Shown here piece after piece: positions 10,689 to 46,998 of a stretch of 64,000 bases of DNA. Position numbers and translations under genes: made by a program. Below the pieces are notes generated by a model. The model was given only the letters and a program-made list of their open reading frames with translations. It made no database searches and had not been told where the DNA came from. How positions within the stretch are numbered: the stretch's first letter is position 1; every line of letters starts with the position of its first letter. Source of the DNA: Phycisphaerae bacterium (GTDB taxonomy: Bacteria; Planctomycetota; Phycisphaerae; UBA1845; Fen-1342); the NCBI GenBank assembly GCA_017999985.1, contig JAGNKU010000017.1, positions 1 through 64,000 on the forward strand, in the 5' to 3' direction.

Positions 10689-13600
10689 CTACGGGCAGTC
10701 GATCGGCAGCGGGTTCATCGTCAGCAGCGACACGAACGGATTGATGTCGCCAAACGACGGGTACACGCCATCGCCGTTGATGTCACCGTTCGCCGGCGGG
10801 CAGTCCGGGTACGTGGCCAGCCACGTCGCGTGGTTGGACAAGTACAGCACGAACGGGTTGATGTCGCCGAAGTTGACCTGCCCGCTGCAGTCCAGGTCAC
10901 CGTAGCAGGCCGGCGGCGCCGACTGCCCGATCCACAGGTCGCGGATGTTGATCTCGTCGAAGCCGATGCCGCCCCAGTCGGTGCCGAAGAACTCGATCTG
11001 CGCCACGCGGCTGAGGTCGAAGCCGTCATCGCTGAGGTCATCGCCGACGCCGGGGTGCGCGGCGAGCTGCTGCTGGATGTTGACGTCGACGGTGAGCCAC
11101 TCCGGATACTGGTGGCCATACAGCGGGTTCGGCTGCCCGTCGATGGTCGGGTCGTAGAAGTTCGGCCCGTAGCAGATGCCCATACAGCCGCGCAGCCCGT
11201 ACGCATCGCGCAGCGTCACCATGATCGGCGCATCCTGATAGGGCTTCGGCTCGCAGTTCGGGTCCTCGGGATCGCAGCTCCAGTTCGACGCATCCTGGAA
11301 ATAACGGGCCGCGAAACGCAGATTCATGTTCGCGCCCGAGAGATCCACCGTGCCGTAGCAGGTCTTCAGCAGCCGAATCCACGGACCGTGGTACCAGCCG
11401 CCGCCGATCAGCATGTAGCCGGTCGTCCAGGTCGTCGGCGTCCCGTAGATGTCCTCGCCCACGTAGATCGAGGCGACCTCGGAGTAGCCTGACCACCACG
11501 GGTCTAGCGGGTCGACCCCGACGAGCGGCTCATAGATCACCGGGCCGACGCCGGGGTAATCGATCTGCGTATCGAGCGCAAGCTCGACCGGCAGCGGCAG
11601 GCCGCCACCGACTGTCACGACCACGTCATCCGTGTCGCGGGCGCACGGGTCGTCGCCCTGCACCTTAAGTGTGATGTAATGGACACCGGACAGCAACTGC
11701 ACGGTCGGCGTCGCGCCGGTTGCGAGCTGCGTGGAGCCTTCAAACCACGCGTAGGTGGTGGCGTTGATGCTGCCAGTGCCGTTCAGTTGGACCGCCTTGA
11801 GCTGACCGCACGTGCCCGGGACGCTCTGGTCGGGGCCGGCGTTCGCCGTCGGCGGCGGGAGCTGGATGAACGTCACGTCCGCCACGCCCATCGTGTAGTT
11901 GGCCGTGCCGCCCCACACTACGCTCTCGATGCGGAAGCCGGTGATCTGGGTCGCATCGAATTCCGGGTTCTGCTCACCCGGGTGCGGGTCGTCGATGCAC
12001 GCGGAGAGCGTGTACCATTGGCCGTCGTTGGGCACGTTGAACGGATACCCGCGATAGCCGTTGTTGGCTGTGTACAGGCGCAGCCACCAGCCAACCGTGC
12101 TGGGCAGGTCCGTGCCACCGTTGCGGAGCGTAAAGGTGAGCTTACCGCCGGTGGCGTCGAACGGGCACACGGGCTGCACGTTCAGGCCGTAGTAGCCGTT
12201 GGCGCCCTGCACATCCATCGCCACGCCAGTCTTGCCGTAAATGGTCTGAATGTAGACGGGGTACGGGCCGCTGACGCCGGCCGTGGAGTCGAAGTCGTTA
12301 AACCAGCCGGCCTCCGGGGCACCGCACGCGTCGAGCGTGATCTGCACCGTGTCCGGATCGCTGTTCACGCCGTTCGTGTCACGCACCACCAGTGAGATAC
12401 TGCTGGTCTGACCGGGCGGCAGGATGACCTGCGGCGTCGGGCCGGTGCCGATGACCTGGCTGCCGCGCGTCCACGTCCAGCTCGCGATGCTCGCGCCCGG
12501 TGCGGTCGCGTAGCTGCCGGTGCCGTCGAGCTGCACGATGCCCGGCGCCAGCGGACCCTGATCCGGGCCGGCGTCCGCGACGGGCTTGTTGATCGGCGGG
12601 ATGACGGCGCCCGTTACCCAGAACGTGGCGGTTGGATCGCTGTCGGGGTTGGTCGAGTTTGAGCAGCCCTGCTTGATCCAGACCTCGCCGTTGTGGAAGC
12701 ACGCCGCACTGCCGCTGCTGCTGAAGGCGGGCAGGATGCCGAGCGTCCACTTGTCCTGCGCGATGTCGTAGACGCCGTACCGATCGGTCACGCCGCCCCA
12801 GCCTTCGTGGTCGGCATTGCTGCGCCCAAAGAGCACGAAGACGCCGCCCAGCGGGCCGATGACCGGGCTCTTCCAGTTCGGGGGAAGCGTGACGACAGCC
12901 GACCCGTAGCCGGGCTCGATCGGGAGCGGGCCGAGGTCCTCGGCCGGAGTGAGATTCGGTGGATCCGTCCAGTCATCCCAATTCGGACCGATGTAGAAGT
13001 TTGGGCTGTACTCCGCCGGATCGAAGCGATAGAAGCGGTCGCCGGTCCCGGGCGGATTCGTCTGCCAATCATTCTTGATGCCGTAGATCATGCCGCCGAC
13101 GTTCGCCATTTGGACAACACGGCTGAACCAGTTCGAATTCTGGCCCAACATGCTGGTCTTGATCGAACTGCGCGTGCAGTACGGCGCATCCAGGTCCAGG
13201 AGGTCGATCTGCGCCAGCGCGCCGCCCTGGTTGGTATCCGACGCGTGCACATTGCTGAAGAGGTCGTTGCCGGCCACGACAAAGCCAGTGTTACCGAACT
13301 TGTCATTCGCGTGCGTGGACCAGTTGGTGGAAGCAATGTCATAGACCAGCAGTTGCCCGACATCGTTCGTACGGATGTATGCCAGCAGGCTGCCCTGCGT
13401 TCCCAGCGTCGGCGCGTAGGCCAGCGAGCCGCTCATGTTGCCCCAGTCCCAGAAGTACCCGGGCGGCGTGGCCAGCGTCTCCCACGTGCCGCCGGTGGTC
13501 GTGCGATAGAAGTCGCCGGGGCCTTTGACCCAGTACAGGTGCGTGCCCGACGAGGCGAGCGAATTGGAGAACCAGTCGCCGGTGGCCGGCCCGGTCACCG

Positions 13601-26829: not shown

Positions 26830-27252
26830 TCACTGGCCGGGTTCGTAAGCTATCAGGTACTCCAACCACTCAAGGAGCGATGTTCCGACCACTCTAGGAG
26901 GAAACGCGGTTGGGTCACTAAAGGACGTTTCTACTATCGGCATGTCAGGCACCCGCGTGTCAAAACCGTAGGCGATGTCGCCGCCGTCGCTAGCGAACAC
27001 AACCACGCCAGGAAAAGTCTCGTGCACTAAGTCTCCCTCCAAACCGAGAATGACATTGCCAATCGACATGATCATTACGTAGTTCGCCTTCCCGATTGGG
27101 CCCTCACATCCGTCCATTACGCGCAGTAAATTTAAATACTCGTGCGGGAGCTTGGCACCAACGGCATCGTTTAGTCTCGCGATCTGCTCGGGTTGCGCTG
27201 GTGGTCCTCTGAAATGGAAATCATCAACGACCTGTGCTATCCTTGCATCCAT
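26830..27252 (-). CDS. SMI1/KNR4-family immunity protein candidate
   Basis: A 140-residue protein from ATG 27252, preceded by an AGGGA site. It carries the SMI1/KNR4 pattern: an N-terminal helix, then PAQPEQIARLNDAVGAKLPHEYLNLLRVMDGCEG, a beta core, and FASDGGDIAYGFDT, which is the family's conserved GDG-type segment. These proteins are the most common immunity proteins against polymorphic nuclease toxins. It begins 14 bp after the stop of the orphan Rhs tip with the HNH-like domain, so the pair is a toxin/immunity cassette. A longer start at 27303 would overlap the toxin end and is less likely. Confidence 0.85.
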   Translation of the reverse strand: MDARIAQVVDDFHFRGPPAQPEQIARLNDAVGAKLPHEYLNLLRVMDGCEGPIGKANYVMIMSIGNVILGLEGDLVHETFPGVVVFASDGGDIAYGFDTRVPDMPIVETSFSDPTAFPPRVVGTSLLEWLEYLIAYEPGQ

Positions 27253-27266
27253 CGACTCATTTCCCT

Positions 27267-28181
27267 CTAGTGTGGTGTAGCATCCCTCTGATGGCGGGCC
27301 CAAAATGAATTGAGCGCGTCATGGGTAGCCTTGTCCACTATGGCAAAATTCGCTGGATTTGTCGGATCACCTCCGAATTTCACCGGGTGAATGTGATGCA
27401 CGAACTTGTCAGCGCACTGTGGATTGGCTCGCCTATAAGCTGCAACCGCCTTATTCGCAGCCGTCCTTGCCGCATCGTATGCCGCGCCCTCAAGCAGCAC
27501 AAACGGACCCTGTGGGCGCCGCACACGAGCAGGATACCCGGACCAGTCGAATATGGAAAACGCGCCCACCGCATATGGCCCGGGCGCGCCTTTCATGGCC
27601 CGTGCCCCTCGCATCTCACCGAGCACGCCGAAGAAGCCGCCGATCGCCTTCCCGGCGAAAGGTGCCGCACCGGCCGCGAACTCTAGGGCGTTGCCCCAGG
27701 TCAGACCGTTCTCGTCGATGTTCGCCGCCGCCAGCGCCATGTGGTGCATGCCGACGAGGAAAGCACCGCCGGGAACGAGGGCGCAGACCATCGACTCGAT
27801 GACCATCGTGCCGGCGGTGACAGCCATGCACTTGAAGAAGCGGTCAAAGTCCATGGCAGCACTGGTCCGGGCCGCATATATGCCCGTGATTGTCTCGACC
27901 ACGTCGTCGTATGGTTCGTCCCAAGGATTCAGGCCCGCAGGATCGCGGAGCGTTACCGGGTTCCCGCCGGCGTACTGGTACAGGTTCATCCCATCGCCGT
28001 AATGGCCCGTCGATGCGAACGCCGAGACAAAGTTGGCGAACGTTTCGCCGTTCATCGCCAAGGCGGCGACCACCAGCGAGGCCGACTCGTTCATGTCCAT
28101 CTGGAGCAGACGACCTAACTGCGGGCTGTACCAGCGGTTACGCATGTAGTACAGGCCCTTCGTATCCACCGTCAGCGGCTG
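27267..28181 (-). pseudogene. Orphan Rhs C-terminal tip with HNH-like nuclease toxin
   Basis: A 5'-truncated Rhs piece. It opens with the Rhs-core end (LYYMRNRWYSPQLGRLLQMD, then GDGMNLYQYAGGNPV and DPAGL) and continues into a unique tip of about 230 residues: a hydrophobic stretch (GTMVIESMVCALVPGGAFLVGM) and a C-terminal HNH-like toxin with KFVHHIHPVKFGGDPTNPAN and IVDKATHDALNSFW. Bases 27977-28181 are identical to 30227-30431 in the full Rhs gene. Beyond 28181 the Rhs sequence stops and IS66-like sequence begins, so there is no start codon of its own. It could become active by recombining into the complete gene. The SMI1-type gene directly downstream is its probable antidote. Confidence 0.85.
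27977..28181. repeat. 205-bp perfect direct repeat, copy in orphan Rhs tip
   Basis: Base-for-base identical to 30227-30431 in the complete Rhs gene (constant offset of 2250). It encodes the end of the conserved Rhs core. Identity ends sharply where the two C-terminal tips diverge on one side and where the orphan meets IS66-like sequence on the other. Confidence 0.95.
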
Positions 28182-28255
28182 CTCCGTCAGCACTCGGCCA
28201 ATCGCATCTTGAACTCAGCGCCGCAGATCTGCGACGATGCCGCCGGAGGTGCGGC

Positions 28256-28593: not shown

Positions 28594-29520
28594 TCAGTCT
28601 CCGACAATTCGCGCTGGTGTGAACTGCGCACCACGCACCTTCTCTGCGCGGAGCAGTTCCATGACCCTTGGCTTGACCAGGAGCAACGGACGGGCATAGC
28701 CTTGGACATCGTGGTGCTCAGGGTCGTCGCGTGGAACAGAGCGGCCGAAGCACTCCCATGTCTGCACCGCGTCAGGTAACTGCTCGGGATCGACTTCGCT
28801 ACGTTCGTACACGATGTCCAAAGGCTCGCTACCCCTGGCGGCGTGCATGTCACGCTTGCAGACATCGCACCCCCATTCGCGTCCCCCCTCGACCAATGCT
28901 CCCGTGTCGCGTATGAGGTTCTCCGACTGCCGACTTATTCGCGGCATTACGTGCGCAGCGATAATCTGCCACCATTCGAGCGGCTCGCCTGTCCGGCAAG
29001 CGCGAGCTTGGCGCAATTCCGCGCCGGACAATCCGGCTTTTCGCAGCGAATCCGCGATCCGGGTGGAAACCAGGATAGGACCGCAGCCCCAGCCCGCGTC
29101 GCAAATGTCCGCCTTCTTCGGTAGCCTGCCGCGCCTAATCACTAGCGGCGATGTTTGCACGGCCCCGGTCCCGCACGCGGGACAGGCCACGGACAGGTCG
29201 TAAGTCGTTCCTGTGCGAATTTCGTGGCAGCACATCGGGGCCCGGCTGACCGTCAGCCAAAGCAGCGCTGCCCCGCATAGCTCATCGTCCGCGTAAACGT
29301 GTTCGATGCGCTCCGACCACGCAATTCCCGCGTCTCTTAGTGCGTCCCGCAGCAATTCGAGACGCGGATCGTCCGATTCGAACGTGTAGCCGAAGAAGCC
29401 ACAGAAGAACTTGTCGGGGCCCTTCAGTCCCTCGTCGCAGCCCACCTTCTGCGCCAACCGCAGCACGCGCGGATAGCCGGCGCGGCCCTCATTGAACGAA
29501 ATATAGTATCTAACTCTCAC
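28594..29520 (-). CDS. Double-CXXCG-motif immunity protein candidate (SitI6-like)
   Basis: A 308-residue soluble protein from a GTG that overlaps the Rhs stop codon by 4 nt (GTGA), so its translation is coupled to the toxin. The overall pattern MRVRYYIS near the start, CPACGTG near 115, WGCDVCKRD near 220 and SEPLDIV/LPDAVQTWECFGR near 235-255 resembles the myxobacterial double-CXXCG paralogous family. That family contains SitI6-type immunity proteins acting against SitA6 toxins with HNH-like domains. The two CxxC motifs probably bind one zinc ion. Position directly behind an Rhs tip with an HNH-like toxin supports an antidote role. The family link is from memory. Confidence 0.7.
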   Translation of the reverse strand: MRVRYYISFNEGRAGYPRVLRLAQKVGCDEGLKGPDKFFCGFFGYTFESDDPRLELLRDALRDAGIAWSERIEHVYADDELCGAALLWLTVSRAPMCCHEIRTGTTYDLSVACPACGTGAVQTSPLVIRRGRLPKKADICDAGWGCGPILVSTRIADSLRKAGLSGAELRQARACRTGEPLEWWQIIAAHVMPRISRQSENLIRDTGALVEGGREWGCDVCKRDMHAARGSEPLDIVYERSEVDPEQLPDAVQTWECFGRSVPRDDPEHHDVQGYARPLLLVKPRVMELLRAEKVRGAQFTPARIVGD

Positions 29521-32500
29521 TTGAAGTAGCCTTCAATTGCGCGTACCCAGTCAGGATAATCCTTGTAGACGTTGCGATACATGTTGATTATCTCCTCTCT
29601 TGTCGCGTTCTTTGTGCCCGTGCCGTACGAAATGATGCTCTGGAGTTCGTTCGTGACTTGCTGGTGAAGCTCCTTCGTAAGTATTACCGCCGGCGCTTCG
29701 CCCGCGCGTGCGCCGAAACGCTCGAGAAAGCGACATTCTATCAAATGGTGTGCCACGATCGAACCGTTCTTCCCCGCCGTCAGCTTCTGCGCCTCCTTGT
29801 ACGGCAGGATCTTGAACAGATGCTCCAGTCCCTCCTCCAGCGCCCGAATGCCCCGTGAGCTTTTGCGGCCCCAGGCAAACGCCTTCGACAGGCCTTGCAT
29901 GGCGTGCATGCCTTCCAGGCCGCGTTTGACCATCGGCATTGCCACCATGGCAATGTTGATCGCATCCCAGAACCCGCCTTTGCCGCTCGCAATCACCTGC
30001 ACGGACTTGAAGGCGTCGTACAACCCCGATCCCGGCAGGAGCGACCATGCGATTGAGAGTGTCGTGTTCAGGCCGAGCGAAGCCCACTTGGCGCCTTCGT
30101 TTAGGGTCCCGAGGGCGTATAACGCGTGACCGGTGAGGTCTGAGATTTGCTCATCAATCTCGTCCTCCATCCCCCACTCCAGTCCGGACGGATCCAGTCG
30201 ATTCACCGGATTGCCGCTGGCGTAGAGGTACAGGTTCATCCCATCGCCGTAATGGCCCGTCGATGCGAACGCCGAGACAAAGTTGGCGAACGTTTCGCCG
30301 TTCATCGCCAAGGCGGCGACCACCAGCGAGGCCGACTCGTTCATGTCCATCTGGAGCAGACGACCTAACTGCGGGCTGTACCAGCGGTTACGCATGTAGT
30401 ACAGGCCCTTCGTATCCACCGTCAGCGGCTGACGCGTCACGGGATTGGTCTTGTACAGCCGTTCGAAGAACAGGCCCTGATGACCCGCCGCACTGCGCGG
30501 CCAGGTCCCGCCCTGTGGCCGGTCCACGGCCACGAGCGTGCCGTACGGCTCATACGTGAATTGCGTGACGACCGCGCCACCCGCCCCGGTCAACGCGACT
30601 ACGTTGTGGTTCGCATCCTGCAGGTAGTACCACGTGGTTGGGGCGCCCGTACCACCCGCATGATCCACCTGGCAGATCAGCTCATCGACGTATTCCGGCC
30701 CGTATACGTAATCGCGCACGGCCGTGGAGGGGTCACCCGTCGCCGGCGTCGTCGTCTCGACTTCTTCGATCCGCCGGACGCCGTCGTAATAGAAGTCCGC
30801 GACCTGCTGGCCGCCGAGATGGTCGCAGCGCTGCGAGCGGCTCAACCGGCCCAGGGCGTCGTAGGCGTACTTCGCCACGATCCGGCCCATGGGCGGGTTC
30901 GTCGGGCTGAGGTAGATGAGCCGGCCGTCGGCGGCGAAGTGACTCGGATTCAGTTGGTCCGCGAGATTGACCTGGACCAGGCGGTTGAGGCCGTCGTAGT
31001 GGTAGAAGAACTCGCCGTCCCAGACCAGGTTGCCGGCCAGGTCGGTGATGATCGGCTGCGTGGTGCCGGGAGTAGTGGTCACCGTGGTGAGCGCGTTGGC
31101 CGCGTTCACCGTGTGGGTGACGTCGAGCGTCGCATCGGGATCGCCGTCGCCGGTCCAGTTGCCGAAGTCGTCCAGCGCCCAGCCGAGGTTCCGTTTGAGC
31201 GGCACCGTCGGGTCGGGGACGATGGCCGAGTTGTCGGCGGCGAGCCGGCCGACGCCGGACTGGATCAGGCGTTGCAGCGGGTCGTAGGCGTGGGCCTGCG
31301 AGCGGTCATTCTCGTGGGCGACACCGTTGATCGTCGCCTGCGCGACGCGGGCATACAGGCGGTTGCCGCTGGCGTCGTAGCCGTACTGGTAGCGGTGCAC
31401 CGTCTGGCCACCGGCCACAAAATGGAGATCAATGACGCGGCCGAACTGATCCAGGCCGTCGTAGTCGCCGCCGGACCCGAAGCTCTGCAGCACGCCGTTG
31501 CCGCGGGAGTTGAACACGCGCCGGCCGGTGCCGATGCAGCCGAAGGCGGCGTAGCCGGCGCTGCCGTCCGTCAGGCCGCAGACGCGATTGAGCGCGTTGT
31601 CAACGCTGCCCGCAGCGCCGTAATTGAAGTAGACCGGCGTGTCACTTGGATACGTGATACTGGCCAGGCGGTTGAAGTTGCCGGCGGCAACGCCGCCGTA
31701 ATCCCAGTCGTACCACACGAGGGGCGATTGTGGCGTAACGAGGTCGAAGTGCTGCTGTTGTTCGCTCTGCAGGTTCTGCCAGGGGTCGTAGGTGCAGATG
31801 CTCTGGGCGATGACCGTCGCTGAGCCCGTCCCGTCCCAGTTGTAGGCGGTCGCGGATTCCAATTGCTTGTCGGCCGTGTATGTGTAATGGATATGCTGCA
31901 CCCGGTCTGACGGCCGCCACGGTGCGGGCGGCTGGGGGTACGTGTAGTAGTACGGCGCATCATCGATCCACGCGTCGGTGAGCTGGCCGAGCGCGTCGTA
32001 CTTGTAGTATACAGCATTGCCGCGCGAATCGTCGCGCGAGGCGACCGCACCGTCGGAGTAGTACGTGAAGGACAGCGTCTTGCCGTCGGGATAAGTGACC
32101 GTTGAAACCTGCGCGCGGTTGGCGCTCTCGACATCCCACGAGCCCCAGTCGCCGCCGTTCTTCACGCGGGTGCGCCATTTCCAGCGATCCGTATCCCAAT
32201 CTACAACCACGCTGCCGCGCACGACTGCATCGGCGTACTCAAAACGCGTGATCTGAATCAACGGGTTATTGAGGTCGTCCCAATCGATCGTGGTCCACTG
32301 CGGCGTCGCGCCCTGGAAATACTCTGCGGCGACACCGGCCATTTTGCTCAGTTGGCCCCCCGCACCGTAGTGGTACGCCGTAATCTGCATCTGCGGCGGG
32401 GTTCCCGTGTCGTCCGCGTTTTCGACAGTGAGCAGCACGCGACCGAGCGCGTCGTACTGTGTACGCGTGACCGTTCCGTCCGGGTGATGTACCTCCACCT

Positions 32501-35500
32501 GCCGGCCGGCTTCGTCGTATACGAACTCCGTCACGAGGACGCCGGGGGTGCCGATGGGCGGCCAGGTCGGATCATTCGGGTCCGGCGGCAGACCGCCGGC
32601 TGAGTACGTGTCTTGGTTCGTGCCGTAATTCGCGGTTGCGATCACGCGGCCAGCGAGGTCGTACCAGTTGCGGACGAACGAGTCGATGGGCGTCGCGCCG
32701 TCGTACTCGCTGTGGGTCGTCATGACCGCCCGGTCGTTGGCGTCGTAGATCGTCGTCGTCGCCGCGACCGGCACATCGGCGGAGCCGCCTTGGCCGTCCG
32801 GCAGGTCGGAAGCGACGGTTTCGCTCAGGACCTGGCGGCCCTTGGCGTCGTAGGTGTACTTCTGTGTCGGCGCGTTGGGACTGTGCACCTCGACCGGCCG
32901 GTCGCCGTGGTCAAAGAACGTCCACGTCGCTGTATAGACCGGGCTGCCGTCGACGAGCCGCCATTGGCGCGTTTCCTCGGTCCGACCCCGCGCGTTGTAG
33001 CGGTATTCCGTCAATGACAGCGGCCCAGTCGCAGCCAGCGCTTCCGCGGTGCTCGTGATGACGGCCGTGCTTTCGGGCCACGCGATGCCCAGGCTGCTGG
33101 GATCCAGCGCGCCGGGTCCGTCGTCGGGGCCGTACTCGGCGACGATCACAGCGCGGTCGAGGTTGTCGTACCAAGTAAACGTCTGGCGAAGCAGCGGCGG
33201 GGGAGCACTCGGGGCATGCGGCCCGTATTCAACCTGGCTGCACGGCCGCATGCGCCAGTCGTACACGTAGTCCGTCGTCCAGCCGATCTCGTCCTCGTTG
33301 GGAACAACGCCATCTTTCCACCAACCGGTGCAACTGGGGTGGGATTCACCCGGTGCGCAGGCATTGGGGTCCCACAGGAGATATTGGTTCGCGGGCTCGT
33401 CGCGGTAGTGCCGAATCGTGACAAGCTCGTCCGCGTCGGTGACGCCCTCGCCGTAATAGCGCTTTTCGATGAGCAACATGTTGTCGGCCGCGTTGGACGC
33501 CGGCGCGCAGGGATCCGCGCAATCGATGCTGCCCCATGCGCAGTGCGTGTCGCTCGTGCCGCGGAACGTGCGCTCGAGCCGCGCGAGGCTGTCATACGTG
33601 TAGCGCGTGATTGTGCCGTCCGGCGACTGCTCACGGGCAACGAGATTGCCGCCGTAGTAGGACACGGTCGAGTTCAACCAGGCGCCGTGGCCGCCTTGCG
33701 ACATCCCGACCATCTGGCCGGATGGGTCGTATTCCGGGTAGGTCTCGGAGATTACGTCGCTCGCGGCATACGCAACGCCGGTAGTCGGCGGATACGGCGG
33801 CGTGCCCCAGGCGTCGTTCCATTTGATCTCCTTGACCGAAAGGACCTTGCCGGCGGCCATCTCGGTGCACTTGATGGGCGACAGGTATTGGCAGGTTCCG
33901 CCGCCCGCCGCGGGGGGCACAACATCCCGGTACTCCCAGGCGGTCAGGGCCAGCGGGTCGTTCGGGTTGCTTTCGTAGATGAGGTGCGTCTCGCGTCCAT
34001 TCGGGTAGGTCATCTTGACCGGGCCGTAGAGCGGGTTGTACGTCCAAGTGCTGGTCGCATTGAGCGGCGGCGTGGATGACAGCCGCTGCCAGCCTGCGGG
34101 ATACTCGACGCCGGTGTATCCGGGCGCCACGTCCACGACGGCCAGGACCGGCTGGCCGTAGTCGTTGTACCCCGTGTAGCTGATAAAGAACTCCGTCTCG
34201 CTGCCCACCCCGGTCCACTGCAGGTTGCCCCGCGTGTCGTAGACGTACTTCTCGAACGAATGCGCCGGGGCTCCGTCGCGGCCCGGCACGGCGGGTCGCG
34301 TAATCGACTTCGTGGTGACCGCGCTGTGCGCGCTGTTCGGGTCCGCGTACGTGTAGTCGTACGTGATCGTCACGTTGGCAGCGAACGTGATCTCAGTTTG
34401 GGGCGTGGCGTAGCGGGCTTCCTGCGTGATGACGCTCGGGCGCAGTGGATCGCGTGCGTATGCCTCGATCCAATGCGCGCCGTCGCAGTATACGTTCGGA
34501 TCCACCGGCTCACCCAGCGTGACCTCGCCAGTCCCAGCGCGGACGCCCACCGCCAGCAGTTCGCCGAGCGTGCGGCCCGTGGTCGGGTAATACATGAAGA
34601 CACGCACGAGACCCTGCGAGCTCGGATCGAGGTTGTCCTCGGACCCCCAGCCTTTGCTGCCGATCATGGCGACCCGGCCGTCGGCGTCGTAGAAGCGTTG
34701 CTCGCGGAAGCCCAGCTGCGCGACGACATCGCCGTAGTTGTCGGGCGTGAGATCCCAGGTAGTGTCGCTGAGCACGAAACCGGCGGGGTTCATTTCGACG
34801 ACACGCCGCTGGGCGATTTTCTTCTTGGTGCACGCGTTGTACGCGCAGTCTTGGTTGGGGTCGAGTTCGTCGATGACCATGATGTGGAAAGGCGCGTGGA
34901 ACGGCAGCGGTGCAAACTCGCCGGCCGGCCCGCCGGTCCAGCCCTGGTCGTAGCGGTAAGGCCAGCGATACAGGGTGTGCGTGTGTTCGGTACTACCATA
35001 CTCGTCACGGTCGCCCGTAACCTCGCCGGGATACTGATGCAGGCGGTAGAACCGCCACTCGCGTTGTTCGCCTGCGGTTTCGCCGGGTGTCTGCATGGCT
35101 TGCACACCAACCGCGACGTGCGTCCGGTGCTCGGGAGCACCCGGCACAAAATCGGCGAGGGCAGCAATGAGGTCTTCGGCATTGGGGACGGGCAGGTCCT
35201 GGCGCGCGAATCTCATGTCCGCCAGAGCTTTGAAAGTCACGCTCATCGTACCGGTGGCTGAATTCGGGTCATCGACAGCGACGTACTCGTTCGGGTCCTT
35301 CCCGATGAGCTCATTTACCGACCACCCTGACTGGTGCTTCAGAATCGCTGCGCACGCCTTGCCCCCCCACATGGCCGCCAAGTGCTGAAAACCGCGCGCC
35401 AACGTGCCGCCGCTCCATCCGCGTTGGTCATACCTATAGATCGTGTGCTCGGTCGTTTCCGCGGCGGTTCCGGCCTGACCACCGTCGGTCCCGCGCCGCG

Positions 35501-38264
35501 TGGTGCTGGCCTTCAGGAGGAGGTACCCGCCCCAGAAGCCCGGGCCCCAGCAGTGCGCGTTGTCATACAGCGCGCGATACTGCGAGCCGGCGGGTGCGTT
35601 CGCGTAAATGGACACGAAGCGCGGCGGATTCTCGCAGTCGTTGTTCTCCTCGTGCGTGTACTGCGTGCGCAAGACCCAGTTTGACGGGAGCGCGCCTTCG
35701 CCTGCGTAGAGTTCCTGTTCGACCGCGTCGTAATCATCGAACGACGACAGGCCCGCAAAGTGCTCGTGGAAGCGGAGTACGCGTGGCTCGGACGGCACCG
35801 CGACGTCCCCCTCGTACACGTGGATGGAGTAGAGCATGGTCTCCTGAAGCACATCCAGCGTGGGCACGAGCACACAATTCGAGTCATTCGGTTTGTAGGT
35901 CGTCGCGCCGAAAGTCCGGTAGCTGTAGAGCAGCGTCCACTTGACCGGGCCCACGCTCTCACCCGCGGCCGGAGCGGCCCGCAACTTGATGGCCTGAAGC
36001 TGCCCCTTCGCGTTGCAGTTTTGGCAACAGGGCGTGCAGCGATTCGGATTCTGATTGAAATTCTGCTCCGGCGCCCCATAGGTTCGAAATGGCCCATACG
36101 TGTATTCGACCCGGTTGCCGTAATTGTCGCGGATCTCGTTCACAACAGCGTAATATGGCAGACCAAACGGTTGCTCGTATCGGTTTGCCTGCGGATCGGG
36201 CGGTGGGTACTGCGGGTCCTGGGGATGTGCGTGCGGATCTGGCCAGAGGCTGCCTGCGGCAGGCGTCCACAGATCCTCGTAGTGTGGCGTAAACGTGTAG
36301 ATCAACGCGCCCCGGTGGGTGCGCACCTGGAACCACGTCGGCCGATTCGCCCCCCAATCACCGTTCACCTTGCCGCCGTCGTGCGTCAGCGTCGCATCAA
36401 ACCAGCTGGGGGCCGTGTACTCGCCGGTGCCTGCCTCATCGATGAACGGGATCGCGTGGTGCGCGTCAGGAATGAAATAGCACACGCGTTGACCGAATCC
36501 GGGATCGTCCACCCACTCCGTGGTGTCCTGGTACGCCGCGTCGACGAGCAGGATCGGGTTCTCGCTCATCATCCAGTTGCGGCCGTTCCAGTCCCAGAGT
36601 GGAGCGAGCACCTGCCGCCCCAGAAACTGAGAGGGACCACACTCCCGCTTGCACGCATGCCCGCATTGCGCAGCCAGCCACCACTCCTCGAAACCCTCGG
36701 CGTAAGTGCGCACGTGTCGAAACACCGCACTGCCGAACGGCAACTCGAAATCGATCGCCTGCAGGAGCGGTACGCCTGTGACGAGGTCGATTGCATCGTG
36801 GTGCAAAGCGCGCTCCGCATGCGGGTTCATCCGACTGTGCACCGTCTGCCGCGCGACCAGCGGCGACGAGCTGAGCCCCATGTCGAGCTTGCGCGGCGGC
36901 AGATCGCCGGGCCCGAAGCCGTCGATGACGTTCAGGTGCAACGGATACCCTGCCGGAACCCCGATGTCGCACTCCCCGTCCAAGAACCAGCACCGGGAGT
37001 CCGGCAGCGCCTGCGGGCAACGATCTTCATATCCCTTCGGTACCAGTGGATAACCATTTGCGTCACCACATTGATGGCACTCCACCTTCACCGCGTCCGC
37101 CAGGCACGAGCCCCCGCGGCTGATTTCTGAGTGTGCCACGATCAGGCGTGGCTCGGCGTCCTGGCCGCTTGAGCCCGTCGTCGCCGAGATACCCTCGACC
37201 CAGAACCAAACTGGCACGTACCGTCGTTCGCCGGAATAGATCTCCGCAAGGAATGGATTGATGTCGGCGAAGCTCAGGATCCCGTCGCCGTTCATGTCGC
37301 CGATGAGAGCAGCGCGCTCGGCCATGTCCGGAAACCAGTGGTTTGGATCTTCGGGGTCAAGGAGGATGTACTGCGTCAACCACGCATTGTAGTCTGCAAG
37401 CGCGGTCACGAAGGGATTGATATCACCAAAAGTGCAAGTACCGCTTGCATCCATATCGCCCCGCACCCACACGCTGTACTCGCGCGCACTGCCGGAGCAC
37501 ATGCCGGCGGTGAGCGCACAATTCGGGTCCGATTCGACCAGATCAGATTCGCCCGTCCATCTTGGCTTAGCCCACACCCTGAAACGCCCGGCATCGTACG
37601 AGAAGCAGTACTTCAGCTTGGTGGCGCATGGAAGCACAGAATTGCGCGGATCGACCTCCAGGATCAGTGGCACCAGATCATCTTCGCCGACAACCCCATC
37701 GGGATCGTTGCGGTCCGCGATCCCGTCTCCGTCATCATCGTCATCGTTCAAAAGGACGTACTTGGCTGGCCGGTTCGGATCATTGGGATCGGTCAGCAGC
37801 GGCTCCAGCTCGTCTTCGGCCGTATCGCGCTCGGGAAGCGCCGTGCCATTATCGTTGTCAGAGTCGATGTCGAGGTCGACCCAGTACACGTCCTGCCGCC
37901 CGGACGGCGCCTCGCGCGCGTCCTGGCCGGACTCGGCGCTGCGGTTCAGACCCAGCGACGCGCAGAAGCTGTCCACGTCGTGCACGGTGAGCTCCCCGTC
38001 GTGGTCGAAATCCGCAACGCTCAGCAGGTACTCCACGTCCCGGCCGTAGCGCGTACACCACGCGTGCGGACTGAGCAGCGCCAGCGTGAACGGCTCGATG
38101 TCCGCCAGGTCCACCACCCCGTCGCAGTTCAGGTCCGCGGGCGTGCCCGATGAGTCGGCCTTCACCCGGGCAACCCGCGCGAGCTGGACGGTCAGCCCGA
38201 TGAACAACCCCAGCGCGCAGAGCAACGTCGTGGACCGGGTCGCAAGACGGGACGCGGCATGCAT
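29517..38264 (-). CDS. Giant Rhs polymorphic toxin with N-terminal dockerin-like modules and HNH-like C-terminal tip
   Basis: A 2915-residue exported protein. ATG 38264 (MHAASRLATR) is chosen for the GGGAGA site just upstream and the signal peptide (STTLLCALGLFIGLTVQLA). Residues 35-110 hold two calcium loops (DLNCDGVVDLADIEPF, DFDHDGELTVHDVDSF). A further Asp-rich region precedes a dockerin-like pair near 275-340 (TFGDINPFVTALADYNAW, GDMNGDGILSFADINPFL). From about 480 to 2640 are YD/Rhs repeats (YTYDSLARLERTF, YDALGRVLLTVENAD, YDALGQLTDAWIDD), then the Rhs core end (YYMRNRWYSPQLGRLLQMD, DPSGLEWG near 2693). The tip (2694-2915) has VAHHLIECRFLERFG and LTKELHQQVTNELQ, an HNH-like nuclease pattern. 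A 4-nt overlap links it to its immunity gene. Confidence 0.9.
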   Translation of the reverse strand: MHAASRLATRSTTLLCALGLFIGLTVQLARVARVKADSSGTPADLNCDGVVDLADIEPFTLALLSPHAWCTRYGRDVEYLLSVADFDHDGELTVHDVDSFCASLGLNRSAESGQDAREAPSGRQDVYWVDLDIDSDNDNGTALPERDTAEDELEPLLTDPNDPNRPAKYVLLNDDDDDGDGIADRNDPDGVVGEDDLVPLILEVDPRNSVLPCATKLKYCFSYDAGRFRVWAKPRWTGESDLVESDPNCALTAGMCSGSAREYSVWVRGDMDASGTCTFGDINPFVTALADYNAWLTQYILLDPEDPNHWFPDMAERAALIGDMNGDGILSFADINPFLAEIYSGERRYVPVWFWVEGISATTGSSGQDAEPRLIVAHSEISRGGSCLADAVKVECHQCGDANGYPLVPKGYEDRCPQALPDSRCWFLDGECDIGVPAGYPLHLNVIDGFGPGDLPPRKLDMGLSSSPLVARQTVHSRMNPHAERALHHDAIDLVTGVPLLQAIDFELPFGSAVFRHVRTYAEGFEEWWLAAQCGHACKRECGPSQFLGRQVLAPLWDWNGRNWMMSENPILLVDAAYQDTTEWVDDPGFGQRVCYFIPDAHHAIPFIDEAGTGEYTAPSWFDATLTHDGGKVNGDWGANRPTWFQVRTHRGALIYTFTPHYEDLWTPAAGSLWPDPHAHPQDPQYPPPDPQANRYEQPFGLPYYAVVNEIRDNYGNRVEYTYGPFRTYGAPEQNFNQNPNRCTPCCQNCNAKGQLQAIKLRAAPAAGESVGPVKWTLLYSYRTFGATTYKPNDSNCVLVPTLDVLQETMLYSIHVYEGDVAVPSEPRVLRFHEHFAGLSSFDDYDAVEQELYAGEGALPSNWVLRTQYTHEENNDCENPPRFVSIYANAPAGSQYRALYDNAHCWGPGFWGGYLLLKASTTRRGTDGGQAGTAAETTEHTIYRYDQRGWSGGTLARGFQHLAAMWGGKACAAILKHQSGWSVNELIGKDPNEYVAVDDPNSATGTMSVTFKALADMRFARQDLPVPNAEDLIAALADFVPGAPEHRTHVAVGVQAMQTPGETAGEQREWRFYRLHQYPGEVTGDRDEYGSTEHTHTLYRWPYRYDQGWTGGPAGEFAPLPFHAPFHIMVIDELDPNQDCAYNACTKKKIAQRRVVEMNPAGFVLSDTTWDLTPDNYGDVVAQLGFREQRFYDADGRVAMIGSKGWGSEDNLDPSSQGLVRVFMYYPTTGRTLGELLAVGVRAGTGEVTLGEPVDPNVYCDGAHWIEAYARDPLRPSVITQEARYATPQTEITFAANVTITYDYTYADPNSAHSAVTTKSITRPAVPGRDGAPAHSFEKYVYDTRGNLQWTGVGSETEFFISYTGYNDYGQPVLAVVDVAPGYTGVEYPAGWQRLSSTPPLNATSTWTYNPLYGPVKMTYPNGRETHLIYESNPNDPLALTAWEYRDVVPPAAGGGTCQYLSPIKCTEMAAGKVLSVKEIKWNDAWGTPPYPPTTGVAYAASDVISETYPEYDPSGQMVGMSQGGHGAWLNSTVSYYGGNLVAREQSPDGTITRYTYDSLARLERTFRGTSDTHCAWGSIDCADPCAPASNAADNMLLIEKRYYGEGVTDADELVTIRHYRDEPANQYLLWDPNACAPGESHPSCTGWWKDGVVPNEDEIGWTTDYVYDWRMRPCSQVEYGPHAPSAPPPLLRQTFTWYDNLDRAVIVAEYGPDDGPGALDPSSLGIAWPESTAVITSTAEALAATGPLSLTEYRYNARGRTEETRQWRLVDGSPVYTATWTFFDHGDRPVEVHSPNAPTQKYTYDAKGRQVLSETVASDLPDGQGGSADVPVAATTTIYDANDRAVMTTHSEYDGATPIDSFVRNWYDLAGRVIATANYGTNQDTYSAGGLPPDPNDPTWPPIGTPGVLVTEFVYDEAGRQVEVHHPDGTVTRTQYDALGRVLLTVENADDTGTPPQMQITAYHYGAGGQLSKMAGVAAEYFQGATPQWTTIDWDDLNNPLIQITRFEYADAVVRGSVVVDWDTDRWKWRTRVKNGGDWGSWDVESANRAQVSTVTYPDGKTLSFTYYSDGAVASRDDSRGNAVYYKYDALGQLTDAWIDDAPYYYTYPQPPAPWRPSDRVQHIHYTYTADKQLESATAYNWDGTGSATVIAQSICTYDPWQNLQSEQQQHFDLVTPQSPLVWYDWDYGGVAAGNFNRLASITYPSDTPVYFNYGAAGSVDNALNRVCGLTDGSAGYAAFGCIGTGRRVFNSRGNGVLQSFGSGGDYDGLDQFGRVIDLHFVAGGQTVHRYQYGYDASGNRLYARVAQATINGVAHENDRSQAHAYDPLQRLIQSGVGRLAADNSAIVPDPTVPLKRNLGWALDDFGNWTGDGDPDATLDVTHTVNAANALTTVTTTPGTTQPIITDLAGNLVWDGEFFYHYDGLNRLVQVNLADQLNPSHFAADGRLIYLSPTNPPMGRIVAKYAYDALGRLSRSQRCDHLGGQQVADFYYDGVRRIEEVETTTPATGDPSTAVRDYVYGPEYVDELICQVDHAGGTGAPTTWYYLQDANHNVVALTGAGGAVVTQFTYEPYGTLVAVDRPQGGTWPRSAAGHQGLFFERLYKTNPVTRQPLTVDTKGLYYMRNRWYSPQLGRLLQMDMNESASLVVAALAMNGETFANFVSAFASTGHYGDGMNLYLYASGNPVNRLDPSGLEWGMEDEIDEQISDLTGHALYALGTLNEGAKWASLGLNTTLSIAWSLLPGSGLYDAFKSVQVIASGKGGFWDAINIAMVAMPMVKRGLEGMHAMQGLSKAFAWGRKSSRGIRALEEGLEHLFKILPYKEAQKLTAGKNGSIVAHHLIECRFLERFGARAGEAPAVILTKELHQQVTNELQSIISYGTGTKNATREEIINMYRNVYKDYPDWVRAIEGYFK
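30227..30431. repeat. 205-bp perfect direct repeat, copy in full-length Rhs gene
   Basis: Identical to 27977-28181. It covers the codons for the constant end of the Rhs core, immediately before the variable tip, and gives ample homology for swapping the HNH-like tips. Confidence 0.95.
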
Positions 38265-39809
38265 GACTATCTCCCTTTCATGTGGACCGTGTACTAGGCC
38301 GAGCGGCGATACGCGCAAAGTGACCAATCAGGGAATCCAACGCCCCACTGGCAGCCGGTGCCAGCGGGTGGGACCGTTCCAGACAGCACGGCTGCCGCGA
38401 AGGGAGTGACCCGGCTGAATACACCGGACGATTTTGTGCCCTGGTTTCACCAGCGTAGCCCATCCGCAGCCGTGCGACGACTTGCAGGTTGCGTGCTCCG
38501 CGGCGATGGAAATGCACACAGTCGCGCGAAGCGACGTGGATCGGAGTTGGTTCGCGTTACGTCTTCAATGCGGGTGCGCGGGCGGCCACATGGCGACACG
38601 TGTCCGGCGCTGGCGGTACCAAGGCGCGCGGCACCGGCCCGTCGCGCAACAACGCGCCGCAAGCGACCGGTCGCCGAGATAGCGACTGGTCATGACAGGC
38701 GGTGCTCGCACCAGAGCCGGCCGCCGCTACACACCCTATGTCACAAAAGCACCCTCTAAATACACAAGTAGTTTACAGCATGTTTTCGCTCTGGACAAGT
38801 CGCGTCTCGGAAAAATGTCGCGACATCATGCGCACGGCAATTACCGGTTCACAATCGCAACGTGCGTCACCTTCATGCCTGCACGCACACAGAGTGAAAC
38901 CGCGTGAATCGCAGGCGCATTGGTTGCATAACGATTACCGTGATTCGAGCGCACCATCGATCAGCGGGCATCCACCAGTCTCAAGCAGGACGCGCTGCGC
39001 GGTCAACGGTGTCTGAAATGAAACACCGCGTCGTGCCAGGAAAGCGATGCCGCCGCGCCGGCTGTGTTCTGCCCCAAGCGGTTCACGACGACGAGCGCTG
39101 CAGGACGGACAACCTGTGACGACGCCGTGATGCGACACCAATCAACGCCGCTCCGACGGTTACGTCGAGCTAGTTGAGATTCAACAACCGGCGCTGCGCG
39201 GTGCGGGGCGGTGGCAGCGTGATGCGACTGGATGTTCTCGGCAGCGCAGTTCGTGGGGCGACGGCGCGACTCACACAGCGGGGTCGAGCATCAGCGCATC
39301 CCCAGCAGGTCGGCGCGGTCTCGCCACGAACCACGCCCACCCGCAGGGACACAGGCACCGCGCGCAGGAGTGCCAACATCCCAGGTGTCGTCAGCGGACA
39401 CGTAGCGGTCCGCCGCTGAGCAAGTGGCAACCGCAGACCGCGAAACTCCGGGCCGTTCAACGGAACGCGGGGGCAGTGACGCCGCCCGCGCCGGCTGCCC
39501 CGACGCGACGCCTCGCGTCGCTTGCGACTCGGTAAACCGCTGCGGCTCAAAGTGTTAAGGCACGCACAGCAGGACAAGGCGGGCGGGCGGTGTGCCGGGG
39601 GACGCCCGCGCGACCCACGTGCACAGCGACCGCAGGTTTCGCCCGCCGGGCCGCGGCCCGCGTACAATCGCGTGCCGATCGCATGACGGCCGCCGTCCCC
39701 GCTATACAATAGTTCAACATGTTCCGGCGGCTTAGCCGGACGAGGTCATCCGGGAGTAGTCGGTTCAGAGCCAACCCGGTCCGGACTCGAACAGGAAGGA
39801 GCGACACGC
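38265..39809. other. 1.5-kb stretch with no supported gene
   Basis: Between the start of the giant Rhs gene and an acidic lipoprotein gene I find no reading frame with protein-family character; frames up to about 180 codons here look like chance openings in GC-rich DNA. The stretch 38740-38830 is noticeably AT-richer (CCCTCTAAATACACAAGTAG). Near 39708-39715 is TATACAAT, a possible -10 element for the lipoprotein gene. The Rhs promoter should lie just above 38280. Confidence 0.4.
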
Positions 39810-41171: not shown

Positions 41172-43097
41172 TCATCCGCCACTCAGCAGCATCACGAACG
41201 GGTTGATGTCCGCGAACGATGGGAAGACCCCGTCGCCATTGATGTCGCCGTTCGTGGCGAGGCAGTCCACGTACGTCGCCTGCCATGTGGCGAAGTTGCT
41301 CAAGTACAGCACAAACGGGTTGATGTCACCGAAGCCGACTACGCCATCGCAGTTGAGATCGCCGATGTGATGGGCCGCGATGTGGATCAGCTCGATGCCG
41401 TCGCCGGTGCCGAGGTTGCGGCTGTACTGTTTGTGGGTCGCGTCGTTCCAGTGCTCATGCACACCCAGGCTCGACAACCCGACTCCGGCCCCATCCGGAT
41501 TGTAGAATGTCCCCGACGGTGGGTTGTTCGCAAGGGCGGCCTCGTGCAGATAGTCTTCCTGTCCGCCCTGCAGGCTGCCAGGCGCCCCGGTCCCGCCGGT
41601 GACCACGTTCGGCCACTCCGCCAAAAGGAAATCGTATGCAACGGAGTCGAGCGCCACGGCGTCCAGCGACGCGAACAGACTCGAGGGCCAATCCGCCGTC
41701 GTGCCGCTGCCGAACGGCGGCAACAGCCACTTGTGCGGCCAGCCCTCGGCCCAGTAGCCGCCGTAGAGACCATCGATAAAGGATATCAACGTTTTGCCGC
41801 CGAGCTGGGCGTGCCCCACGAGGTCCACGAGGGCGCGATAGTGGCCGGTCCCGGGACTCCAGGCCGGATTGGGCAGGCTCAGGTGCAGGTTGTAATAGCC
41901 CGGCTCGTCGGGCAGGCGGATGAGTGAGCCGTAGTGGTTCTTCGCGCACAGCGTCACGCCCGACGAATGCCCTTTCAGGCAGGCGAAGTCGATCAGGTAC
42001 GCGGCCTGCGCGTAGCACAGGGGCAGGTAGTCCTGCAGCGTGCCCTGCGCCCCGCTGGTGCTCCAGTACACGGGCGTCTCCCACGCGGTGCCCTGCGAAG
42101 TCTGGGCTTCGTCGCGGCCCCACGCGCCGGTCCACGCCAGGTAGTGGACGTCCGGGAGCTCCGGGTGGCAGTGATTCCAGTAGTGGTTGGGAAAGAACGT
42201 GGTCGTGTCGCCCACGGTGATGTCCGACTGCGCCACCCCGACCACGTAGACCAGTTGACGCAACAGGGCGAGGATCATCTGGGGCGACGTGTTCACGCGG
42301 CCGAGCCGACCGGTCTGATTCCCGTCGGCATCGAAGAAGCTGGCGAAGATCCGGTTCGCCGTCACCAGATTGACCTTGATCGTGATCCGCTCACCAGGCT
42401 GGTAACCGATGTCGCCGTGGCCGTGGTTCTGGTTGAAGTGGCGGAAGATTGCGTCCCAGGCGGCGCCGTCGGTAGCCGCGCCCGCGACTCCCCGAATCGC
42501 CCGCGAGAGCATCTCGTCCACGATGGCTTGGTCCGTATGGCTGCTTTCCCACCAGTAACCGTCGCCGATGTCGTCGCCCGCATAGTTCGTGCCGGCCCAG
42601 TCAGTCGCGTTCGGATTATGCACCCACACCACGCGGCCCGGGTAGATGCCGCGCGGCACGCCGATCGGGTCGTTCGGCACCGGCGGGTCGGCGGCGGCCA
42701 CTGGCGCCAAGGGTCCGTGGCCGATCGCGATCAGGCCCGCGATGGCGGCGCCCATGAGCACGGCCGCGACGGTCAGACTGTTTCTGTGGTAGAGCATCCG
42801 CGCCCTGCGATACGCTGCAAAGGCGCCCGCAACAGCCACCAGCCAGACGAGAAACCCGCCGGCCAGTGGTCGGGCCACTTGCTGGCAGGGGTAGGCCGCC
42901 CGCGCCGGTTTCGGGACGACCCGGACCAGGAACCAGATCAGGGCGAGCAGCCCGGCCAGCGGGAAGATGTAGTGCCGCCAGCGCGCTCGCTCTGCCGCGC
43001 TGTGTTTCGCGGGGTGCGCGCGGCACGCGGCTTCACACCTGCATGGCGAAGCCGGGTCGACGACAACTGGCAGGTTCGACTCGCGACGTTCCCACAT
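41172..43097 (-). CDS. Membrane-anchored DUF362-like protein with C-terminal dockerin-like module
   Basis: About 641 residues from ATG 43097 (MWERRESNLP). Two or three hydrophobic helices lie within the first 120 residues (HYIFPLAGLLALIWFLVRVV, GFLVWLVAVAGAFAAY, LTVAAVLMGAAIAGLIAIG), then a DUF362-type body: ITIKVNLVTANRIF, NTSPQMILALLRQLV, DITVGDTTTFFP, ACLKGHSSGVTLCAKNHYGS, LISFIDGLYGG and LFASLDAVALDSVAYDFLL. It ends with two dockerin-like loops, GDLNCDGVVGFGDINPFV and GDINGDGVFPSFADINPFV. DUF362 proteins are often linked with iron-sulfur clusters, but no ferredoxin motif is present here. It follows the propeller/pseudopilin series on the same strand. Confidence 0.8.
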   Translation of the reverse strand: MWERRESNLPVVVDPASPCRCEAACRAHPAKHSAAERARWRHYIFPLAGLLALIWFLVRVVPKPARAAYPCQQVARPLAGGFLVWLVAVAGAFAAYRRARMLYHRNSLTVAAVLMGAAIAGLIAIGHGPLAPVAAADPPVPNDPIGVPRGIYPGRVVWVHNPNATDWAGTNYAGDDIGDGYWWESSHTDQAIVDEMLSRAIRGVAGAATDGAAWDAIFRHFNQNHGHGDIGYQPGERITIKVNLVTANRIFASFFDADGNQTGRLGRVNTSPQMILALLRQLVYVVGVAQSDITVGDTTTFFPNHYWNHCHPELPDVHYLAWTGAWGRDEAQTSQGTAWETPVYWSTSGAQGTLQDYLPLCYAQAAYLIDFACLKGHSSGVTLCAKNHYGSLIRLPDEPGYYNLHLSLPNPAWSPGTGHYRALVDLVGHAQLGGKTLISFIDGLYGGYWAEGWPHKWLLPPFGSGTTADWPSSLFASLDAVALDSVAYDFLLAEWPNVVTGGTGAPGSLQGGQEDYLHEAALANNPPSGTFYNPDGAGVGLSSLGVHEHWNDATHKQYSRNLGTGDGIELIHIAAHHIGDLNCDGVVGFGDINPFVLYLSNFATWQATYVDCLATNGDINGDGVFPSFADINPFVMLLSGG

Positions 43098-43277: not shown

Positions 43278-44669
43278 CTACGGGCAGTTGATCGGCAGCG
43301 GGCTCGAGGTCAGCAGGCTCACGAACGGATTGATGTCGCCAAACGAGCCCTGCCCGTACGTCCCGTCACTGTTGATGTCACCATTCAGCGGGTTGCAGCC
43401 CGCGTAGGTCGTTTCCCACTGCGCGAAGTTGGACAGGAACAGGACGAACGGGTTGATGTCGCCGAAGTCCACCTGTCCGTTGCAGTCGAGGTCACCCGTG
43501 CAGACCTGGACCGGCGGGGCCGAACCGAAGACCAGCAGCAGGCGGTTGCTGAAATCGAGCACGAGCAGCCGGTCCGACACAGCCAGATAGTAAAAGTCAT
43601 AGAGCGCCACGCCGGGCGGAAGCGTCAGGGGCGCGCCGTCGGCGTCGCGGAGCACAAACGCCGGATTCGGCAGCGCGCCGGTCAGCGTGACGGTCTTAAC
43701 GACGTTTTCGAAGAGCTGCCCGGGGCTGCCGACCGCGCGGTCATTGAAAATGAGGATGTCCTGATCGGTCCCACCCGATGCGGCGGGGATCAGTTCCAGG
43801 TGCTGCCCAATGACGGTGGCGGCGAGTCGCAGCGCGATCGGCCGGCCATCGCCACAGCCGGGCTTCGGAGTTCCATCGGTGTTCAGCTCGTCCGTCAGAT
43901 GGACCCAGGCGTTGGTCGAGTTCGGGCTGTTGCGGATGGCGCCCTGCACCTGGTTGGAGCGGCGGCCCCAGGCGTTGCCGCTGGCATCATAGATGTGGTC
44001 GCGCCAGGCGGACTGGTCCGAAACGGTGCACGTGCCGCTGATGTCGGTGATGGCGATGCCATCGCTGGTGTCATAGAGGGTGATGCCGGAGTTGATCTCC
44101 AGCAGCGCGCGGCGGCCGGCGCCATAGGGCAGGATCGACAAGCCGCTGTCCTGGCCGCCGAAACCCGGATCATACGCCAGCCCCCCGCCGGGGAACGGCG
44201 AGGCGCACGGCACGGGGAAGTTGGAGCCGGACAGGATGCCGTTGCCGTTGCCCAGGTCGCCGTCGAACGTCGGCACCAGTGTATCGGTCGCGGCGTCGAT
44301 GGCGCGCAGGTTACAGGTCCCGCTGCCCAGCGGGCGATCACACAGCGCATAGAGGACGCCGTTGCGGATCACCAGGCCATCGTAGAAACGACCGTAGTTC
44401 ACGGTTTGCGTGGCCGAGCTCAGGACCACCGCGTCGTTCGGGTCGCTCAGGCTGATCTTCAGGATGCTGATGTCGCGGTCGACGCCAGAGCCGTTGTACC
44501 CGCCGATGTACGCGTAGGCGTCGTCAGAAACGACGTTCATAGGGTTGTTGCCCGCCGGCCCGAAGTGAACGCCCAGGTCGATCGCCGACTCGAGCCACAT
44601 GTCGGCGTGCGCGGCGCCGGCGGTCAGCGCCACCAGGCACAGGATTGCGAATAGACGTTGTGTCACCAT
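43278..44669 (-). CDS. Secreted propeller-like protein with C-terminal dockerin-like module
   Basis: A 463-residue exported protein; ATG 44669 follows AAAGGAGC and gives a signal peptide MVTQRLFAILCLVALTAGAAHA. The body is a propeller-like fold starting with SAIDLGVHFG, AYAYIGGYNGSG and ISILKISL, similar to the PEP-CTERM protein at 45686-46840 (ASIDLGSYF, NAYVGGLKNS, VGVVKIEN). The last 75 residues carry the dockerin-like pair GDLDCNGQVDFGDINPFV and GDINSDG...GSFGDINPFV, ending PLPINCP. It lies 33 bp after a pseudopilin gene and is probably co-transcribed with it. A surface role is inferred. Confidence 0.8.
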   Translation of the reverse strand: MVTQRLFAILCLVALTAGAAHADMWLESAIDLGVHFGPAGNNPMNVVSDDAYAYIGGYNGSGVDRDISILKISLSDPNDAVVLSSATQTVNYGRFYDGLVIRNGVLYALCDRPLGSGTCNLRAIDAATDTLVPTFDGDLGNGNGILSGSNFPVPCASPFPGGGLAYDPGFGGQDSGLSILPYGAGRRALLEINSGITLYDTSDGIAITDISGTCTVSDQSAWRDHIYDASGNAWGRRSNQVQGAIRNSPNSTNAWVHLTDELNTDGTPKPGCGDGRPIALRLAATVIGQHLELIPAASGGTDQDILIFNDRAVGSPGQLFENVVKTVTLTGALPNPAFVLRDADGAPLTLPPGVALYDFYYLAVSDRLLVLDFSNRLLLVFGSAPPVQVCTGDLDCNGQVDFGDINPFVLFLSNFAQWETTYAGCNPLNGDINSDGTYGQGSFGDINPFVSLLTSSPLPINCP

Positions 44670-46840: not shown

Positions 46841-46998
46841 GGTGCCACCTCCTTCAGAAATGTTCTGCACGCCGATGTGGATCGCATGACCCCCACTGCC
46901 GAGACTCCCGGCCTCGGCGGCGCCGGGTCACGCACACGGCCAATTGACCGGGCGGCCGGGGATTCCCTCGGTCTTCACGGCCAATAGGCCAACTGCAT

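Follow-up and report, generated by a model that had tools for sequence, protein, structure and literature searches.

Dockerin-like modules in Rhs toxins of Phycisphaerae appear to share a genome-specific recognition code with C-terminal protein tags

A Phycisphaerae genome encodes an Rhs-type polymorphic toxin of 2,915 amino acids that carries two dockerin-like pairs, A and B, between its apparent signal sequence and its shell. Judged by their residues, pair B and the modules embedded in the shells of other Rhs proteins look like members of their own genome's system of C-terminal tags, while pair A seems to be a separate and older component. Because the Rhs modules carry the tag residues of their own genome, the comparison favours docking of these toxins to a lineage-specific partner common to the C-terminal tags.

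The window, that is, the whole stretch of DNA analysed, comprises 64,000 nucleotides (positions 1-64,000, forward strand) of contig JAGNKU010000017.1 from Phycisphaerae bacterium GCA_017999985.1 (lineage Planctomycetota; Phycisphaerae; UBA1845; Fen-1342). G000 denotes the source genome, other G labels comparison genomes, C labels contigs and (-) the minus strand. The family comparison set contains 27 genomes from 24 genera, which for the cohesin search were the source genome and 26 relatives.

Anatomy of the Rhs locus

The main Rhs gene occupies 29517..38264(-). Its open frame runs over 29517-38327(-) with an ATG at 38264 and a TTG at 38327 as a possible start, in agreement with the gene limits and ATG start of the original prediction. 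Both the YD repeats (PF05593, 45.3 bits, cut-off 22) and the Rhs-associated core (TIGR03696, 39 bits, cut-off 32.5) score over curated cut-offs, which identifies the product as an Rhs polymorphic toxin and bears out the predicted Rhs shell. The shell spans 30195..36812(-) up to the core motif NPVNRLDPSGL and starts in the same way in ten named loci, from MAGs of Phycisphaerae and one Planctomycetaceae. Export, likewise predicted, is supported by a Sec-type signal sequence recognised by eye, MHAASRLATRSTTLLCALGLFIGLTVQLARVARVKA (aa 1-36, ending in ARVKA; 38157..38264(-)).

Between the signal sequence and the shell lie pair A and a beta-domain, 'VDLDIDSDN...VWFWVEG', placed at 37005..37880(-), its end being approximate, by alignment with G004, G015, G020, and G021. 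This domain contains pair B as well as, between pairs A and B, a thrombospondin-3 (TSP3)-like loop, NDDDDDGDGIADRND (37701-37748). Within the shell, the segment 'AGNLVWDGEFFYHYDGLNRL' at 30969..31037(-) is, by comparison with other Rhs proteins, the empty counterpart of the site at which those proteins have a dockerin-like module; the main Rhs protein is naturally without one there.

The variable C-terminal tip, a putative toxin (29520..30194(-)), shows by eye an AHH...H motif, and its residues VAHHLIE...ELHQQ can be set against the Tox-AHH (HNH/EndoVII nuclease) motif [AG]HH, N, H, H, Y. The tip has no Pfam or NCBIfam match, no hit to a Tox-AHH-kind profile at E <= 10, and no homologue across 392 planctomycete genomes. 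The start of a candidate immunity gene of 308 aa (28594..29520(-)) and the Rhs stop codon share a 4-bp overlap (GTGA); this gene matches no Pfam or NCBIfam family, and the search of the 392 planctomycete genomes for relatives of the tip and this gene returned only one weak P0002 match. Further along lies an orphan, displaced Rhs tip cassette (27267..28193(-); TIGR03696, 44.4 bits), 260 bp of which are 93% identical to the core region 30180-30439 of the main Rhs gene. Behind it comes a SUKH-1 (SMI1/KNR4) family gene (26830..27303(-); PF09346, 30 bits, cut-off 25.4), which probably encodes the immunity protein for this cassette. With its variable tip, immunity-like gene, and displaced tip cassette, the locus is built like a typical polymorphic toxin locus. 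A fragment at 27890-28549, between the main Rhs gene and the displaced cassette, resembles the IS66 accessory protein TnpA.

Two dockerin-like pairs ahead of the shell

Pair A (aa 43-106; 37947..38138(-)) follows directly behind the signal sequence, with the loops DLNCDGVVDLADIEPF (aa 44) and DFDHDGELTVHDVDSF. Pair B (aa 269-345; 37230..37460(-)), of the GDINPF type, is inserted in the beta-domain and has the loops DMDASGTCTFGDINPFV and DMNGDGILSFADINPFL (aa 270-345). The GDINPFV pair of the original prediction is thus present, but is itself a second complete dockerin-like pair. Each pair consists of two calcium-loop and helix repeats with ligand-type residues at positions 1, 3, 5, and 12, the pattern of type I dockerins, and the calcium-ligand residues are intact in 29/29 shell-embedded and 8/8 N-terminal Rhs modules.

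In structure models, both pairs have a dockerin fold, as had been predicted for the N-terminal modules. The AlphaFold2 model of pair A has a pLDDT of 93, and the 24 PDB chains that score Z 4.1-7.9 are without exception dockerins, the first unrelated chain following at Z 2.4. Pair B was modelled within a larger model at a pLDDT of about 70-84, and its best 21 structural matches (Z 4.0-7.4) are all dockerins. VIA-align listings consist of Foldseek's own best chains, so that the lack of other folds in them carries little weight. Profile A1 includes both pairs, which makes its E-values for them (4e-28 and 4e-25) circular, and the independent evidence is structural. Searches with Pfam and NCBIfam would not by themselves have revealed these dockerins: PF00404 (Dockerin_1) stays below its cut-off in the main Rhs protein (15.3 bits for pair A versus 22.9). 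Other modules of G000 pass that cut-off.

Module sites in related Rhs proteins

Dockerin-like modules occupy three sites in Rhs proteins: behind the signal peptide, within the beta-domain, and within the Rhs shell. The N-terminal layout of the main Rhs protein recurs in G004, in G020 (two genes, one of them split), and in G015, as expected if the fusion is not peculiar to this genome; G021 also has it, but in a protein of 617 aa that lacks a shell. The insertion of pair B interrupts the 'VDLDIDSDN...LWVEG' domain, which is unbroken in G012, G017, and G002. In G012, this beta-domain common to the Rhs N-terminus (G012:C29:16479-16712, L112) gives a weak cohesin match (E 0.017), and its sequence would possibly fit a cohesin-like sandwich with an inserted dockerin.

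The shell site lies between 'YDADGNL' and 'YTWDAENRL', ahead of the core. Modules are embedded there in C9, C27, and C4 of G000, and the shell-embedded form was matched in 16 of the 27 family genomes and 15 of the 24 genera, many of the loci having been read directly. Not every long Rhs frame of the family has a dockerin-like module: about 15 of some 36 are without one. The orthologous shells found outside the family, among them those loci with the same shell start that the family search did not match, have no module, and their N-termini carry TSP3 repeats or are beta-helix-like, Cys-rich, or bare.

Rows of orphan Rhs tip cassettes were seen in G015 (L160, L186-L188) and G011 (L164, L189). Each cassette begins slightly upstream of the shell-embedded module, which places the module within the common block of the cassettes.

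Two further patterns were considered and set aside. No protein has both N-terminal and shell-embedded modules, but about two would be expected by chance, and we make no claim of mutual exclusion. A recent jump of a module into an Rhs gene is not visible, since the embedded modules share no more than 70% identity with the nearest of the sequences compared, which were own-genome tags and embedded modules from other genomes.

Dockerin-like modules as C-terminal tags

In G000, the dockerin-like module usually sits at the C-terminus of exported proteins, as a tag. The module profile matches at least 150 places in this genome (218 candidates), and the module ends within 25 residues of the stop codon, mostly within 8, in 130 of the 144 copies positioned in the census. 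Three neighbouring exported proteins in the window carry such a tag by profile match (10713..10901(-), 41178..41363(-), and 43305..43496(-)). Rhs modules depart from this placement: none of the five in G000 (C17 A and C17 B, the two modules of the main Rhs gene, and those of C9, C27, and C4, the last a partial one) is C-terminal, versus 130/143 others (Fisher 1.6e-5). A module is present in five of the six long Rhs genes or gene fragments of G000 (the enrichment test for Rhs modules used an estimated gene total of 4,300). The Rhs gene of C8 has a dockerin-like pair immediately behind its signal sequence, which at 21.8 bits is just below the PF00404 cut-off.

The tags of nine genomes have paired cysteines, at position 4 of loop 1 in 190/193 and in the linker in 188/193, suggesting a disulfide. 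Shell modules in Rhs proteins keep the Cys pair (29/29 and 27/29), and pairs A and B are without it. Near-identical internal modules at the contig ends of C9, C11, and C15 of G000 point to repeated genes that break the assembly.

A genome-specific tag dialect

C-terminal tags were compared among nine genomes, with 130 tags from G000 and 5-16 from each of the others; they were collected with G000 queries, a bias against detecting other dialects. Of about 60 columns, the four that diverge most between genomes are loop positions 11, 11, 10, and 10 (of repeats 2, 1, 2, and 1, respectively), with JS values of 1.66-2.07 bits between genomes and entropies of 0.40-0.75 bits within a genome; the maximum reached by any column in 200 label shuffles was 1.29 bits. 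Positions 10 and 11 of both repeats still rank first when G000 is left out; with subsampling to five tags per genome, they did so in 221 of 300 draws. Loop position 14 is N or D depending on the genome. The resulting dialects read F-G-D-I-N-P-F in G000 and G002, V/I-L-D-I-N-P-F in G015, V-F-D-I-D-P-F in G009, V-G-D-I-N-P-F in G004, G-F-D-I-D-P-F in G011, F-A-D-I-D-P-F in G016, F-D-D-I-N-P-F in G021, and N-F-D-I-D-P-F in G023. Dockerin loop positions 10 and 11 are established determinants of cohesin specificity (PMC8063739; numbering matched to the ligand residues there).

Rhs modules follow these dialects. Scored on columns 10, 11, and 14 of the two repeats, shell-embedded modules place their own genome at a mean rank of 1.41 of 9 over genomes, where 5 is expected, a value equalled in none of 5,000 label permutations in which genomes rather than modules were the unit and kinship among genomes was ignored; modules of a given genome share descent, as do the genomes among themselves. 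The mean own-genome rank of the same modules on the remaining non-ligand columns is 3.02. Pair B puts its own genome in first place in each of G000, G004, and G015, the three testable genomes, and its other columns place the own genome fifth, third, and first, respectively. In the main Rhs protein, pair B reads FGDINPF/FADINPF, the dialect of G000 (rank 1 of 9). Pair A departs from the dialect, ranking 9 of 9 in G000 and eighth in G015, the G004 copy being cut short in the alignment. The suggestion that the Rhs protein uses the same modules as neighbouring secreted proteins therefore holds for pair B and fails for pair A.

Possible function of the modules

We consider it about an even chance that these proteins are Sec-exported Rhs toxins held by dockerin-like modules whose lineage-specific partner is also that of the roughly 150 C-terminal tags of G000. 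The toxin would leave the cell via Sec and probably reach the cell surface or a surface-bound complex, where the modules, presumably calcium-binding and recognised by a single partner, would hold it for delivery of a putatively toxic tip. Since an Rhs protein has to end in its exchangeable toxin, the docking module would be placed away from the C-terminus; it would be pair B in the N-terminal beta-domain here, and lie inside the shell in most other module-bearing Rhs proteins of the family. Pair A may be an old structural or stalk module outside the code. Docking to a common partner would explain the fold, the ligand residues, the dialect, and the shift away from the C-terminus.

A more specific proposal, which we put forward tentatively and hold to be somewhat doubtful, is a docking code for each species. 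One lineage-specific, non-cohesin receptor would read positions 10 and 11 (and 14) of at least 100 tags, and Rhs toxins, bearing the password of their own species internally, would be displayed only on kin with a matching receptor.

The original prediction had the toxin docked onto a cohesin-like partner on a surface scaffold for contact-dependent delivery. The dockerin fold of the modules suits a toxin docked onto cohesins, as does the 'planctosome' of cohesins and dockerins proposed for other planctomycetes (PMC6461901). PF00963 (cohesin) passes its cut-off in 8 of the 27 genomes, but has no hit over cut-off in G000, where one protein reaches 19-20 bits, and nothing at E <= 0.1 in the tag-rich relatives G015, G023, G011, and G002; a divergent cohesin may nevertheless be encoded. 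The protein at 19-20 bits (C6:76979; L001:1180-2367 on C6 of G000) could be counted in favour of cohesins, being exported, cohesin-like below the threshold, and itself ending in a dockerin-like pair. Positions 10/11 (F-G, V-L, V-F, etc.) are unlike the clostridial S-T or S-I/L patterns (PMC3413522). Of the readings considered, docking to classical cohesins has the weakest support and is, in our estimate, improbable.

The modules might instead have no partner at all, staying unfolded in the low-calcium cytoplasm and folding outside, where they would stiffen the exported N-terminus, a role that TSP3 repeats may have in orthologous shells. Ligand residues kept without exception in the Rhs modules fit such calcium-triggered folding, TSP3 loops do stand at the N-termini of related Rhs proteins (L116, G035, and G045), and pair A, being off dialect, suits a stalk. 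What this leaves unexplained is why positions 10 and 11 are uniform within genomes, different between them, and copied by the Rhs modules, and why the same module is placed as a C-terminal tag elsewhere; we regard it as unlikely. Rather less likely still is homogenisation without function, in which duplication or gene conversion multiplied the modules inside each genome, local copies entered Rhs genes, and the dialect is a founder effect. Copy numbers of 55 to at least 150 per genome and near-identical copies at contig ends would be in keeping with it, and columns outside the dialect also hold some own-genome signal (the mean rank of 3.02). However, homogenisation should affect all columns, and inside a genome the variation is 1-2 bits in the linker and at other surface columns, but much less at positions 10, 11, and 14. 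Pair B, moreover, keeps its orthologous long linker and its place in the beta-domain from genus to genus and still has the dialect of each genome, which the adjacent pair A has not.

If the recognition positions are uniform in each genome, different between genomes, and copied into unrelated Rhs toxins, one receptor per lineage is to be expected, which bears on the binding target of the many dockerin-like modules in planctomycetes. Should docking to this common partner be true, Rhs toxins would gain a mode of display other than type VI spikes.

Relation to known systems

Rhs toxins, dockerin-like modules in planctomycetes, and a proposed 'planctosome' (PMC6461901) are already known; the dockerin-Rhs fusion at three sites and a genome-specific recognition code common to C-terminal tags appear to be new. 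A search of the accessible literature found no paper joining polymorphic toxins or YD repeats/Rhs with dockerins, and none on the 'GC-type dockerin'. The Rhs polymorphic toxins with Sec signal peptides described by Zhang et al. 2012 (PMC3482391) likewise have a YD-repeat shell, a DPxGL core, a variable tip, an adjacent immunity-like gene, and orphan tip cassettes, and that survey lists both Sec export of polymorphic toxins and their occurrence in planctomycetes. Modules of the dockerin type, before or within the shell, are not described in PMC3482391, from which the terms 'dockerin' and 'EF-hand' are absent.

With clostridial cellulosomal dockerins (PF00404; CaDoc0917, 2ccl, 1ohz), the modules share two calcium-loop/helix repeats, the fold, and variable positions 10 and 11, but differ from them in the GDINPF signature, the conserved Cys pair of the tags, the C-terminal placement on many exported proteins, and a source genome without a cohesin over cut-off. 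NCBIfam NF041540, 'GC-type dockerin domain-anchored protein', embodies the same idea of dockerin-type anchoring with weak similarity (13.4-20.8 bits, under the cut-off of 29). The 'planctosome' proposal for Nemodlikiaceae likewise has non-cellulosomal dockerins on exported planctomycete proteins; in the available part of that source (PMC6461901) it comprises peptidases with cohesins, and neither Rhs proteins nor a genome-specific code are mentioned there.

Other exported proteins in the window

Beside the Rhs gene, on the opposite strand, 39810-40340 encodes a very acidic exported protein or lipoprotein of 176 aa with no family match. The protein at 18450-21281 has a lamin tail domain and a Cthe_2159 domain with a dockerin-like pair between them. 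A PEP-CTERM-like tail on the protein at 45686-46870 represents a second type of C-terminal tag beside the dockerin tags.
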